From: a beta proteobacterium KB13 | Lineage (GTDB): Bacteria; Pseudomonadota; Gammaproteobacteria; Burkholderiales; Methylophilaceae | Length of the DNA stretch: 64,000 nt | Direction of reading: 5' to 3' | Assembly: GCA_000156155.1 (NCBI GenBank) | Contig: DS995299.1 | Span: 2,390-66,389, forward strand | Notes under the pieces: generated by a model | The model's database searches: none | Seen by the model: the letters and a program-made list of their open reading frames with translations, nothing else | What the model was told of the DNA's origin: nothing | Shown here: positions 31,230 through 35,235 of the stretch, piece after piece | Layout: each line of letters starts with the position of its first letter | Numbering within the stretch: position 1 is the first letter of the stretch | Program-made: the position numbers and the translations under genes

Positions 31230-31610
31230 ATGAGCCATCTGAGTAAAAAAATTGAAATCAGTGTGCTGACAGAATATATGCCTTCACACTCATCAGATGA
31301 AGAAAGCAAATATTTTTTTGCTTATTCGGTGACCATCAAAAATGAATCTGATATCAATGTCCAATTAGTCTCTCGGCATTGGAAGATAGTCAACTCTAAC
31401 GGTAATATCAAAACAGTAGACGGAATCGGCGTTATTGGCGAACAACCAATCATTTATCCGGGTGATAATTTTACCTATACCAGTGCGACTGAAATAGATA
31501 CACCTATAGGTGAAATGTATGGTTCCTACTCTATGGAAACTGAGTTTGGTGAAAGGTTTGATGCAGAGATACCAAAATTTGATTTGATCATGCCGAGGAG
31601 CCTGCATTGA
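31230..31610 (+). CDS. apaG: ApaG-domain protein
   Basis: A 126-residue single-domain protein of the ApaG family, with a fibronectin-like fold. Conserved features are FFAYSVTIKNES, VQLVSRHWKI and GVIGEQPIIYPGDNFTYTS. The family has been associated with cobalt/magnesium tolerance, but the biochemical role remains unclear. It starts directly after the thiG stop and overlaps mltA by four bases. Confidence 0.93.
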   Translation: MSHLSKKIEISVLTEYMPSHSSDEESKYFFAYSVTIKNESDINVQLVSRHWKIVNSNGNIKTVDGIGVIGEQPIIYPGDNFTYTSATEIDTPIGEMYGSYSMETEFGERFDAEIPKFDLIMPRSLH

Positions 31611-32836
31611 TTAAATTTCTTCTTCCGCTCATATTTTTTATTTTCATTGGCTGTGTTCCAAAGCAAATAGAAAAAACAGATTGCCAATGTGATGAAACAG
31701 AAGAAATCAAAAAGTCTGAGGAATGTAATGTTATTGAGGTGAAAGAAAAGTCTGATGAGAATATTGTTCCATTTAGTCAGCTCAGGCAATCTGAGTGGTA
31801 TGAGATAGACTTCATTTTAAAGAGTGACAATGTTAAAGATTCGTGGCCTGCTTGGCAAAAAAGTTGTTCTACCCTCATTAATCAAAAACAATGGAAAAAA
31901 GTGTGCAGCATTGCTAACTTGATGGAAGATCCATCCTCTGAAGAGGTTATTGAATTTTTTAAAACAAACTTTACTCTCTATAAGTCATGGAAAGATGATG
32001 GCACTGATTATGGATTAATCACTGGGTACTATCAACCTATTCTCAATGGCAGCAGGGAGAAAACAAAAAAATATTCAACACCAATTTATAAAACACCAGA
32101 AGATTTGATTACGGTCGATTTATCTGAGCTCTATCCAGAGATGAAATATAAAAGATTGAGAGGAAAAGTTGAGGGCAATAAGTTATTACCTTACTTTTCA
32201 AGAAAGCAAATTTCATCAAGTGAGAATATCTTAAAAGGCAATGAATTATTCTGGGTGGATAATGCGGTCGAAGCATTTTTTCTTGAGATCCAAGGTTCCG
32301 GAATAATAAAATTTGAGGATGGAAGTGAGATACCTATCGGCTATGCTGATCAAAATGGACACCCTTATCGCTCAATGGGAAGAGCATTAATTAATGCGGG
32401 CGAGCTAACAAAAGATAAAGCTTCAATGCAGGGGATAAAGTCATGGGCTAATAAGAACAAGAAAAAGCTAAAAAAATTCTTAGATAAAAACCCTAGCTTT
32501 GTATTTTTTAGAGAACTTGATATCGGCTTGGATGGGCCAATTGGAGCTCAAGGAGTTCCGATAACGGCTGAGAGATCAATCGCCATTGATAGACGATATG
32601 TACCAATTGGCTCCCCAGTATTTCTTGCGACCACATTTCCTAATTCAAATGAATCACTGAATCGTTTGGTCATTGCACAAGATACAGGAGGAGCAATCAG
32701 AGGACCAATTAGAGCAGACTACTATTGGGGGGCAGGACCAGAAGCTGGAAAAAGGGCAGGCGCAATGAAACAGCAAGGAAATATTTGGGTCATGTTACCC
32801 AAAGAATTTAAGATCAATAAAAAAAAGGAGCAATAA
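31607..32836 (+). CDS. mltA: Membrane-bound lytic murein transglycosylase A
   Basis: Cleaves peptidoglycan glycan strands, releasing anhydromuropeptides, while anchored in the outer membrane. The TTG start overlaps the apaG stop (TTGA), with GAGGAG a few bases upstream. A lipobox (FIGC, Cys16) ends the signal peptide. The MltA domain (GLITGYYQPILNGS, FFLEIQGSG) is followed by the 3D domain with catalytic Asp in LVIAQDTGGAIRGPIRADYYWG. The 409-residue length is normal. Confidence 0.95.
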   Translation: MIKFLLPLIFFIFIGCVPKQIEKTDCQCDETEEIKKSEECNVIEVKEKSDENIVPFSQLRQSEWYEIDFILKSDNVKDSWPAWQKSCSTLINQKQWKKVCSIANLMEDPSSEEVIEFFKTNFTLYKSWKDDGTDYGLITGYYQPILNGSREKTKKYSTPIYKTPEDLITVDLSELYPEMKYKRLRGKVEGNKLLPYFSRKQISSSENILKGNELFWVDNAVEAFFLEIQGSGIIKFEDGSEIPIGYADQNGHPYRSMGRALINAGELTKDKASMQGIKSWANKNKKKLKKFLDKNPSFVFFRELDIGLDGPIGAQGVPITAERSIAIDRRYVPIGSPVFLATTFPNSNESLNRLVIAQDTGGAIRGPIRADYYWGAGPEAGKRAGAMKQQGNIWVMLPKEFKINKKKEQ

Positions 32837-32847
32837 GCTCCTTTTTT
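32821..32847. terminator. Bidirectional intrinsic terminator between mltA and pqqA
   Basis: GGAGC (32827-32831), a five-base loop and GCTCC (32837-32841) form a hairpin flanked by six A on the left and six T on the right, so it can terminate transcription from either side. The mltA stop codon forms most of the loop. Convergent mltA (+) and pqqA (-) would both end here. Confidence 0.85.
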
Positions 32848-32862
32848 ATACCTAAACAATAA

Positions 32863-32934
32863 TTACTTATTGCATACGTACATTGTTACTTCAAAACCGA
32901 AACGCATTTCAGTAGCAGCAGGTGTTGTCCACAT
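32863..32934 (-). CDS. pqqA: Coenzyme PQQ precursor peptide PqqA
   Basis: A 23-codon gene. The peptide begins MWTTPAATEMRFGFEVTMY, with the Glu and Tyr of the EVTMY motif (Glu15, Tyr19) that PqqE and PqqD join and convert into pyrroloquinoline quinone. The length, the N-terminal MWT and the GFEVTMY core match the PqqA family. A strong ribosome-binding site (AAAGGAG) lies eight to nine bases before the ATG, and a terminator follows. No pqqB, C, D or E is adjacent, so this is an orphan, perhaps extra, copy. PQQ is the cofactor of methanol and other alcohol dehydrogenases. Confidence 0.93.
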   Translation of the reverse strand: MWTTPAATEMRFGFEVTMYVCNK

Positions 32935-33039
32935 AATGTAATCTCCTTTCAATTAGATTCTGTATAAAACAGTAACCCTACTTTACTTAAAAGAAACAAA
33001 AATATACATTTAATAACGCTGAAAAAAACCTAATGATTT

Positions 33040-35235
33040 TCATGAGAGTTTTTTTTGTATTTTCTTTCTAAATCTTTTAGTTTCAACAAAAATATCATAC
33101 TTTATAAGGGATAATTTATCTAATAGGGATAATGATTCATTATTGAGTTGAAAATAATATTTTAGGAAAATGTTCCTGGTCTCCCAATCAAATTTATTAA
33201 GCAGTCTTACTATGTCTTTCATGCGTTGTTTTTTGCGTGATTTGAAACTGAGATTGCTGTAAAAATTTTTCACCCTTCCTGTGTCAATTAATTCAAAATC
33301 AAAATGTTTATCCTTAATATTAATAAAGAGATTTCCCGCAGATAGGTCATTAAAAAATAAACCACGACCGTGCATATCATTAATAAAACGAGCAGATTGC
33401 TCAAAAATATGTCTTTTGCTTAAACCTTTGAATGTATTTTCAGTTTGGAAATGCAGAGCGAGGTCGTTAAAATTGTATGCATCACTGTGTGAACAAATAT
33501 AATAATTTTCAAGACCTGTCTTATCATTCTTTTTGCTAAATACTGCAATTGGAGGTGCGGTACTAATTCCTTTGGCAAGTAAGGCATTTGCCCCATTCCA
33601 CGCCCTTACGGATTTGTTAGGACGGTGTCGATCAAGGTAACGTTTATGTGCATAGATATGTGCCGGCTTTTTGATCACGACCTTGCCAAAATTTGGAATA
33701 TCATGACTCCACACCGCATTCCTAGATAGCCTGAGACTGTCTTTTTTGTCAGGACTGACTAGTTTAGATGGATGACAAGCCTTTAAAAATGAATTAAATG
33801 CTATTTTATTGTTTACTTTAATCAGCCCATTCCATTCGGCATCATGCAGAAAAAAATAATTTTCAGGATTGTGGTGAATAAAATAACGGTTAGAGATTTT
33901 GGGAGCCTGAATTAAATTTGGTTGGTGAGATTTATTCCAAAAAATATAGACAGGGTTTTCAGTAATGGCATTAGGTGTTTCAATATCATTTCCAAGATGA
34001 TCTTTATATTGCCCATTACTTAAATCATTTAAATGATAGTGAAGTTTAATATCCTGAATCAGGTTATTTTGTGTCCATAAAAGATGAATGATCTGATTAT
34101 TCTTTTCAAACTCTAAGATATGTATATTTTGCTCATGCGCGTAATCCTTTATAAATTTAGCGCCAGGGATAGTAGCGTTAAAAAAACGTAGGGCATAATA
34201 CATTTTTTTAATAATAAAGTCAGAAATCTGACCCCGAGCTTCTTCGTAGTATGTGACCTGTTCTAGCTTGGGATAATCGGGCTCCTTGATGCCATTGGAG
34301 ATCAGCCCCTCACGTCCACAAATCAGTGGACCCCAGAACACTTTTGAGAAGTCACCCTTAGCTGCCAACAGAGCAAAGTAACGAGTCACATACTTTGACC
34401 TTTGAAGATTTGGGTGCTCTATGAGTCTATTGACCCTTTTTTTACTCCAGAATGCACACGGAGATATCAGGGGTTTTATATTAAAGTGCTCTGCTATAAC
34501 TTTATATAGTGCTGATTTTTTATAAATATCAAACTTGAACAGCTTTGGATATTTTCTCAAAAAGATACGACGATCATATGGTTCCGGTTCAATCGTTCTT
34601 TCCATAAATAGATTATTTGATATTTCATCTGGCAGCTGATGTTTGGATTGCAAAGATTTATATATTCCAAAATTAATAAAGGGCTCAAAATCAGTAATAT
34701 TTGGACCAATAATAGAACGTTTATGAATTCGACACATTGAGTAAGTGGCGGCCCAGATCATGAAGAAGCTTTTGAAAGTGAGTTTTGTCCATGATGGTCT
34801 ATTAATGGTTGATCCTATTTCGACTGCAAATGGGATTTCTTTAAAATCATTAAAGAATTTATTGATAAAATTTTTCCAAGCGATCATTCCATGCTCAGTT
34901 GAAATATCAACAGCATCTTTAGGTGGAGGACTGAGATTGACAATGATAGATCCACTAAAATGTTTTAATTTTTTTAGCAATCTTGCTTTATGATTGTTCA
35001 AATCTTGGTATGTGAAATATATCCTCAGGTTTTTTACTCCCAGATCCTGAATTTTTTCTAAGATGTATTCGTCGGTTTCCTCATTTTCATTACTGGCAAT
35101 ATTCACTCCGATTAAATTTTCAGGAACAACATGGGGCGTATCTGCTTTTTCAATATTCCTTAAATTTGATCGCACATAAAACAGAATAAATTGTGAGAGA
35201 TATTTTAAATTTATGAATATATGACTCAATTTCAT
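33040..35235 (-). CDS. Two-domain protein: glycosidase-like N-terminus and WaaP/Kdo-kinase-like C-terminus
   Basis: A 731-residue protein. Residues 1 to about 470 look like a TIM-barrel glycosidase-type domain (NLIGVNIASNENEE, GVKNLRIYFTYQD, VEIGSTINRPSW, SIIGPNITDFEP). The acid/base and nucleophile glutamates cannot be fixed by eye. From about 490 onward it is a small kinase-like domain of the LPS kinase (WaaP/KdkA) group: Lys in VVIKKPAH, catalytic Asp in FFNDLSAGNLFI and metal-binding Asp in FELIDTGRVK. No signal peptide is evident. Its start overlaps the stop of the LtaS-like gene by four bases. A role in making or phosphorylating surface glycans is inferred. Confidence 0.7.
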   Translation of the reverse strand: MKLSHIFINLKYLSQFILFYVRSNLRNIEKADTPHVVPENLIGVNIASNENEETDEYILEKIQDLGVKNLRIYFTYQDLNNHKARLLKKLKHFSGSIIVNLSPPPKDAVDISTEHGMIAWKNFINKFFNDFKEIPFAVEIGSTINRPSWTKLTFKSFFMIWAATYSMCRIHKRSIIGPNITDFEPFINFGIYKSLQSKHQLPDEISNNLFMERTIEPEPYDRRIFLRKYPKLFKFDIYKKSALYKVIAEHFNIKPLISPCAFWSKKRVNRLIEHPNLQRSKYVTRYFALLAAKGDFSKVFWGPLICGREGLISNGIKEPDYPKLEQVTYYEEARGQISDFIIKKMYYALRFFNATIPGAKFIKDYAHEQNIHILEFEKNNQIIHLLWTQNNLIQDIKLHYHLNDLSNGQYKDHLGNDIETPNAITENPVYIFWNKSHQPNLIQAPKISNRYFIHHNPENYFFLHDAEWNGLIKVNNKIAFNSFLKACHPSKLVSPDKKDSLRLSRNAVWSHDIPNFGKVVIKKPAHIYAHKRYLDRHRPNKSVRAWNGANALLAKGISTAPPIAVFSKKNDKTGLENYYICSHSDAYNFNDLALHFQTENTFKGLSKRHIFEQSARFINDMHGRGLFFNDLSAGNLFINIKDKHFDFELIDTGRVKNFYSNLSFKSRKKQRMKDIVRLLNKFDWETRNIFLKYYFQLNNESLSLLDKLSLIKYDIFVETKRFRKKIQKKLS

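Follow-up and report, generated by a model that had tools for sequence, protein, structure and literature searches.

The orphan pqqA gene studied here is probably a functional gene that feeds PqqD and PqqE in trans, free of the leader RNA that precedes the tandem pqqA pair of the same genome and under an activator common to the pqqA units and pqqBCDE. As far as our searches go, three things are new: a lineage in which no pqqA lies with the enzymes, a set of pqqA units with a common and regularly spaced promoter element, and a leader RNA that is found on the tandem unit and in some phages.

The orphan pqqA gene and its distance from pqqBCDE

Within the window, by which we mean the whole 64-kb stretch of DNA that was analyzed, the minus strand at 32863-32934 encodes the peptide MWTTPAATEMRFGFEVTMYVCNK, and both the open reading frame (ORF) and its coordinates were confirmed exactly. 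The peptide scored 43.6 bits against TIGR02107 (cut-off 20) and 38.1 bits against PF08042 (cut-off 21.1). Its Glu-x3-Tyr pair, the two residues that are joined by PqqE, stands as E15-V-T-M-Y19 and was invariant across 27 genus loci, in agreement with the initial annotation, which had read the gene as a PqqA precursor with this pair. The orphan pqqA is a real gene of a known kind, and it lies among the following features:

32863-32934, minus strand: orphan pqqA, 23 codons and a stop codon, with matches to TIGR02107 and PF08042
32943-32949, minus strand: ribosome-binding site AAAGGAG, read from the sequence
32821-32847, minus strand: terminator hairpin of 11 pairs followed by a T run, with the mltA stop codon in the loop, from the terminator scan
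31607-32836, plus strand: mltA (murein transglycosylase A), the convergent neighbor, with an NCBIfam match of 187.8 bits, below the curated cut-off of 242
33040-35235, minus strand: ORF of 731 aa upstream of the orphan pqqA, with no NCBIfam match

The ribosome-binding site claimed in the initial annotation was recovered as AAAGGAG at 32949-32943, and with a promoter region, a ribosome-binding site, and a terminator of its own, and a place away from pqqBCDE, the gene deserves the name orphan that it had been given. The terminator scan listed two sites around it, both on the minus strand, compared to 0.2 ± 0.5 in shuffled sequences. The earlier description of the terminator as bidirectional held in part: the hairpin has its T run, and the A run on its 5' side makes termination in both directions plausible, whereas the scan listed the minus strand only. 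A gap of 105 bases separates the orphan pqqA from the 731-aa ORF. Where genus loci contain this ORF, its identity is 55-93%; in the rest of the genus, amt (a name given by our own reading) stands near pqqA instead.

The genome, a single contig of 1,334,326 bases that is 99.98% complete, is taken to be of the OM43/Methylophilaceae type. A check for further pqqA copies, which had been proposed along with the initial annotation, yielded two more, a tandem pair at 846.7-847.0 kb whose members lie 198 bp apart, so that this 1.33-Mb genome holds three pqqA genes, the orphan and the pair, with PqqA peptides that are nearly identical in their core. A single pqqBCDE operon (locus L060) lies at about 736.6-739.8 kb, with B, C, D, and E all above the NCBIfam cut-offs. 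The genome-wide search was run for PqqE, and PqqB, C, and D were identified beside it; the only PqqE above the cut-off lies at 736.7 kb with pqqB, pqqC, and pqqD adjoining, outside the window, which had been described as free of pqqE. A lack of PqqE or PqqD in the genome had been foreseen as an objection to the reading, and both proteins are present. The pqqA pattern was absent from the 17 kb around pqqBCDE, where pqqB starts 100 bp past the preceding gene, and the orphan, unlike the pqqA of a pqqABCDE operon, is not directly upstream of pqqB. The claim that pqqA stands apart from the synthetic enzymes was hence borne out, with pqqBCDE located elsewhere and without a pqqA.

This separation extends to the genus. 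Among the 31 genus genomes examined, several of them fragmented assemblies, 26 had both pqqA and an over-cut-off pqqE, and in none of these 26 did a pqqA lie within 10 kb of that pqqE. Outside the genus, pqqA stood directly before pqqB in all six pqqB loci that were fetched (G031, G032, G033, G035, G036, and G037). Because of this difference between none of 26 and six of six, the operon pqqA was probably lost in the lineage of the genus, with the separate copies carrying the supply. The earlier suggestion of an extra copy therefore needs amending: further pqqA genes do exist, but no main copy was found beside the enzymes, either here or in the 26 genus genomes. Surplus and orphan pqqA genes are already published for methylotrophs, as the accessible text of PMC4109929 counts 3 to 12 pqqA per genome in Methylophilaceae, with the other pqq genes mostly single, and that of PMC11317620 describes orphan copies in Methylorubrum; in view of these multiple and orphan copies, the orphan gene is ordinary and unsurprising in itself.

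We compared 27 orphan copies of the genus, namely that of the window and those at 26 further loci, taken from 26 of the 30 relatives in the genus; two of the remaining four relatives gave no pqqA, and two gave tandem copies only. The frame was kept in all 27 loci (13 distinct sequences), which settles the earlier concern that it might not be conserved among relatives. Variable sites numbered 2, 2, and 10 at codon positions 1, 2, and 3, respectively, and the peptide changed at residues 6 and 21 only, while about 20% of single changes to the coding sequence would be silent. The neighbor mltA was present in 24 of the 26 fetched genus loci (absent in L084 and L085, and 1.7 kb away in L053), and it lay 0.1-2.4 kb from a pqqA copy in all five fetched non-genus family genomes (G031, G032, G033, G035, and G036, from a list of six with G034 left out). 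Together with apaG and thiG, both named by our own reading, mltA marks a conserved orphan site, and judging from these gene neighborhoods the position of the orphan close to mltA predates the genus and is common to five other genera of the family.

It is very unlikely, in our judgment, that the orphan PqqA, besides serving as PQQ precursor, does something else as well, for example in lanthanide handling. Such a role would be in keeping with the only over-cut-off TIGR03075 match of the genome, a XoxF-like protein (the XoxF name being our own reading), and with M. extorquens, where, according to the accessible text of PMC11317620, the lanthanide source affects the orphan pqqA2 and pqqA3, for which a part in an uptake system was put forward; yet the cross-linked E and Y and the whole core of the peptide are kept as in a PqqE substrate.

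A palindromic element and the orphan promoter

Upstream of the orphan pqqA, the sequence has the look of a promoter that is activated and whose mRNA would begin with a hairpin; we distinguished four features there:

33030-33045, minus strand: palindromic element TCATGAAAATCATTAG, common to pqqA promoters, scoring 23.6 bits with sequence model R1 and overlapping the last codon and the stop codon of the 731-aa ORF
33017-33023, minus strand: position of the second half-site, TTCAGCG (consensus TTCATGA), degenerate in the orphan, from the alignment
32980-32985, minus strand: putative -10 box TAAAGT, 60 bp past the element start
32960-32972, minus strand: hairpin CTGT-TTTAT-ACAG at the presumed 5' end of the mRNA, with stem letters that co-change in the genus

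Upstream of the 27 orphan copies stands TCATGAWWWTNNNKAG, with little deviation and in most cases with a TTCATGA-like half-site after it. A regular expression for the element, written after the alignment had been viewed, matched 73 of the 77 regions upstream of pqqA (27 of orphan, 23 of tandem, and 27 of other copies); it missed L069, L073, L087, and L088, and looser or reversed forms could be seen by eye in L069, L087, and L088. The model R1 spans 30 positions and was built from 35 copies of the same set. Upon scanning the own genome with it and scoring 150 of the 1658 first-look candidates, we obtained 10 matches, the top two of which were the pqqA units, at 23.8 bits for the tandem pair and 23.6 bits for the orphan, while the third, at 15.2 bits, was the orphan element on the opposite strand. 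Another match, of 12.2 bits, lay about 80 bp before pqqB. The remaining six scored 13.6 bits or less; the five above the weakest one (8 bits) were inspected, found to lie in or adjoining unrelated ORFs, and attributed to chance.

In eight relatives, for which 150 candidates were scored out of 339 to 1719 in seven and all 51 in G037, R1 matches above 20 bits were upstream of pqqA in 17 of 17 cases and those of 16-20 bits in three of four (20 of 21 above 16 bits overall). A match of 17 bits at G018:811168, within an ORF that resembles biotin carboxylase by our own reading, was treated as chance. Five operon pqqA genes of family genomes (L064, L068, L075, L079, and L097) have the palindrome and lack the TTCATGA half-site, and L007 and L025, which belong to two further families within the order, likewise have the palindrome before a pqqA; it was not seen in L005, and inspection of 300 bases upstream of xoxF by eye revealed no element. 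The pqqB of the own genome is itself preceded by a palindrome, CTCATGAAATCCATGAG, without the second half-site, as if it were the remnant of a lost pqqA.

The spacing downstream of the element was regular in most orphan copies and less clear for the tandem unit. From the element start to the best -10-like hexamer, the distance was 59-61 bp for 20 of the 27 orphans of the genus; in a further five it was 50 bp, one helical turn less, and in L044 and L053 the script selected other boxes. For other family copies that have the element, a candidate at 60-61 bp was among the best three in 21 of 22 (L077 being the exception), and for tandem copies it was among the best three in five of six and the best in one of six. 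No good -35 box was found at the orphan, and the matches of a sigma-70 scan were at chance level. Seven bases past the -10 box, 24 of 27 genus copies have a small hairpin of 3-7 pairs, the stems of which change in step (CTGT/ACAG, CTGC/GCAG, CTACTA/TAGTAG, and CTATTTA/TAGATAG). As the fold of the orphan leader by itself was no better than that of shuffled sequences (z -0.5), the case for this hairpin is built on the co-variation.

The genome encodes two GerE-type proteins, at 767.7 kb and 447.6 kb, each adjoining a kinase-like ORF (response regulator and kinase by our own reading). Either of these response regulators is a candidate for the activator, which would bind TCATGAWWWTCATKAG. The accessible text of PMC12997753 and PMC10112286 holds the LuxR-type AgmR/PedR1 to drive the ped and pqq genes in Pseudomonas and reports that pqqA was down 31.8-fold upon loss of AmsR in Acinetobacter. 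As candidates, the two GerE-type proteins can be set beside AgmR/PedR1/ErbR of Pseudomonas and AmsR of Acinetobacter, which control pqq genes and for which the accessible parts of the two papers give no binding motif.

A leader RNA before the tandem pqqA pair

The tandem pair is preceded by a leader RNA that, by its modeled fold, is a riboswitch candidate:

L004 7991-8085 (own genome 846,990-847,084), minus strand: three-way-junction leader RNA before the tandem pqqA, from the consensus fold

Across 17 hosts, the leader is about 95-105 nt long and contains long invariant stretches. In the consensus fold, UCUC of helix P1 pairs with GGAGA of the ribosome-binding site, which the third arm adjoins. 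In the alignment of the 17 hosts, 97.4% of cells were paired, and the covariation was 0.187, compared to 0.092 ± 0.011 for shuffles and at most 0.068 for slid controls. Two-sided changes were confined to P2 and its apical hairpin, being strongest in the latter, with P1 invariant in hosts and the third arm free of such changes. Folding the leaders of four hosts singly gave z values of -2.3 to -4.2. The helix that pairs with the ribosome-binding site was found in the consensus and in all four hosts folded singly, never varied in hosts, and occurred in the best fold of two of nine viral versions.

The leader appears to be restricted to the genus among the bacteria searched. Leader model R2 matched 23 of 187 family genomes, once in each and all within the genus (31 genomes), and all 23 matches abut a tandem pqqA; it gave none in the 156 non-genus family genomes, and in 369 genomes of the class model R3 matched the own genome alone, both under strict filters by which weak relatives may be lost. 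Within the 64-kb window, R3 gave no match at E<=1. An exact 22-base piece of the leader was present in 20 records of a genome collection of 84,980 species, all with Methylophilaceae/Methylophilales labels or with broader or doubtful MAG labels (Nitrosomonadales, Burkholderiales, Proteobacteria, and Methylobacillus), and the named genomes that have the tandem-pqqA leader sequence include HTCC2181, LSUCC0401, LSUCC0665, and LSUCC0717, which is our ground for placing the own genome with the OM43-type Methylophilaceae.

Searches of Rfam 15 listed no match at the gathering score, neither for window positions 32600-33300 (E<=5) nor for L004 7600-8550 (E<=2); Rfam identities for the orphan and tandem leaders were rejected, the matches being weak, sub-threshold, and mostly on terminator regions. 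None of the c-di-GMP models in Rfam matched the tandem leader at E<=2, and the conserved letters of the leader presumably differ from those of the c-di-GMP riboswitch class. Among the matches listed in a literature search on pqqA or pyrroloquinoline quinone riboswitches, the only relevant case was that of Methylophaga nitratireducenticrescens GP59, for which the accessible part of PMC12530212 lists a c-di-GMP riboswitch leader with pqqA as a flanking gene.

Two short ORFs accompany the tandem pair. One, at L004 7793-7918 (minus strand), lies between the two pqqA copies and has a C-x-C-P-x-C motif; it comprises 32 codons in the own genome (MKLQRRRHTDITFWPFHNWQCTCPICSAKSFN) and is found in 20 of 23 genus loci, being absent in L009, L012, and L015. 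The other, a 65-codon ORF upstream of the pair at L004 8188-8385 (minus strand), has a signal-like start and the string FHPTDALLIGGNGGFNP, and related strings stand at the equivalent place in several relatives.

With three pqqA copies in one genome, the orphan might be a redundant dosage copy that has no role of its own and is kept by chance or for more PqqA. Any of the three copies would then do. The near identity of the three peptides in their core points this way, as do the 3 to 12 pqqA counted in Methylophilaceae genomes (PMC4109929, accessible text) and a ribosome-binding site that is equally free in the orphan and in the tandem pair: when the start regions were folded in a rough calculation, GGAG was unpaired with a mean probability of 0.47 and 0.46, respectively, by which the site of the orphan would be no freer than that of the tandem. 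By contrast, the site, the promoter spacing, and the frame of the orphan are kept in most genus loci despite the very small genome, and the two units do not have the same kind of leader. On balance, we regard redundancy as unlikely.

In the reading that we prefer, the orphan PqqA would be supplied in trans to PqqD and PqqE, the enzyme steps of which are known from the literature. One activator, perhaps a response regulator of the LuxR/NarL type, would bind the element and switch on the pqqA units along with the palindrome-bearing pqqBCDE. The orphan transcript would be short, with a small hairpin at its start and an intrinsic terminator at its end, and as it has no leader of the conserved tandem type, the PqqA supply from the orphan would be under transcriptional control, while the tandem pair would be subject to a second, RNA-level control. 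With the supply coming from separately controlled orphan and tandem units, PqqA, of which one molecule is used per PQQ, would thus be dosed apart from the enzymes. Precedent for separate regulation and for a limiting PqqA supply is given in the accessible parts of PMC9851590 and PMC11317620. In M. extorquens, PQQ was not lost when pqqA was deleted (Toyama and Lidstrom 1998, cited in the accessible parts of PMC11317620 and PMC10112286), the orphan copies lying outside that study.

Phage-borne pqqA and the dosing of PqqA

While a narrow exact viral pattern gave no match, a scan of viral contigs for the codons of GFEVTMYV gave at least 120 stretches. A PqqA-like ORF was present in all 120 listed stretches, 115 of which have at least 140 bases upstream, and the element was found at 8 bits or more in 82 of these 115 upstream regions, compared to 57 of 2420 random windows from the same contigs. 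The commonest viral spacing between element and -10 box was 37 bp (29 of 82), with 59-61 bp in 13 of 82.

The leader RNA precedes pqqA in 15 of the 120 listed viral contigs, with L259 and L276 departing from the descriptor. This descriptor gave 38 distinct matches in 3.85 Mb, counting both strands; pqqA follows 36 of these matches, in a set of which most loci had been fetched for pqqA. P2 pairing was a requirement of the descriptor that selected the 13 viral rows of A3, so that their P2 counts are partly circular, and the independent test of P2 is an anchor-only test based on flanking letters alone. In this test, P2 was fully complementary in 14 of the 17 anchor pairs before pqqA, from 15 contigs, while mismatched partners were so in 5.5%; whole viral contigs held 102 anchor pairs with 14 complementary, which by subtraction leaves none away from pqqA. 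The bacteria-only model R2, run on 80 of the 120 listed viral contigs, gave 12 matches, of which the best seven and the ninth (L195) lay directly before pqqA; the others, namely L237 in eighth place and the three lowest-ranking matches (E above 2), did not.

Twelve annotated phage records matched PqqA. Five of them are P19250A, MEP301, Venkman, MEP401, and MEP402; the others are four Melnitz phages (68%), an environmental record, and two records of Acinetobacter phages with weak matches. In the five named first, pqqA lies under no annotated feature, a case in point for the earlier remark that such short genes are easily missed. Unannotated pqqA was thus seen in the cultured Methylophilales phage records KX815270.1 (28085-28153, minus strand), MW452941.1, MT375522.1, OP830906.1, and OP830907.1, and that of P19250A has 23 codons and is 95.7% identical. 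Model R3 gave weak matches directly before pqqA in MEP401 (30.2 bits, E 0.03) and MEP402 (28.6 bits, E 0.06), and reached E<=1 in two of seven cultured or named phage loci. A pqqA was reported for the Lake Baikal Methylophilaceae phage population VP_266 (PMC7678222), which resembles the phages here as a methylotroph phage with its own PqqA; the same work finds that P19250A encodes none of its reported putative AMGs, whereas here P19250A has pqqA.

As Methylophilaceae phages often carry pqqA, in at least 120 viral contigs and in cultured Methylophilales phages, the orphan itself could in principle have come from a phage. We hold this to be hardly probable at all, given that the mltA site is common to five other genera of the family and that the commonest spacing differs, with 60 bp in hosts and 37 bp in viral copies (29 of 82), even though 13 of 82 viral copies fall at 59-61 bp. 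Transfer from host to phage is more likely than from phage to host, and 23 codons are probably too few for a tree to settle the direction.

Our preferred reading of an orphan that acts in trans has counterparts elsewhere. Methylorubrum extorquens AM1 is an alphaproteobacterium. Its pqqA2 and pqqA3 are, in the accessible text of PMC11317620, similar to the orphan in standing alone and being regulated apart from the pqq enzymes. For strain FJNU-6, the accessible part of PMC9851590 reports five pqqA, with pqqA1 (operon) and pqqA3 (stand-alone) expressed most. Both FJNU-6 (PMC9851590) and the Methylophilaceae (PMC4109929) are, as far as these accessible parts go, like the present genome in combining several pqqA with mostly one set of the other pqq genes. 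The pqqA3-5 genes of FJNU-6 are solitary, as here, but pqqA1 lies within pqqABCDE, whereas the operon of our genome contains no pqqA. The accessible parts of PMC4109929 and PMC9851590 describe no shared pqqA promoter element.

A broader scheme, which we put forward tentatively as possible rather than probable, is that PqqA dosing in OM43-type methylotrophs and their phages has two layers. The first would be a family-old palindromic operator that drives the pqqA units, and the second a new riboswitch class, in which the three-way-junction leader over the ribosome-binding site would sense PQQ, a PQQ intermediate, or a lanthanide/C1 signal and gate the tandem and some phage copies. The orphan would then be the ungated copy, and phages that carry pqqA would keep a form of the host operator, and sometimes the RNA, to be read by host control. 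We know of no riboswitch that senses PQQ or a lanthanide, and the leader would, if this is true, be the first.

The OM43 bacteria are methylotrophs that abound in the sea, where they live by PQQ-dependent oxidation of methanol. A precursor peptide detached from its enzymes offers a clean natural case for asking whether the supply of PqqA limits PQQ, and the common element defines a PQQ regulon that is open to testing. Phage-borne pqqA under similar control would, if the leader senses PQQ or a lanthanide, tie this sensing to infection.
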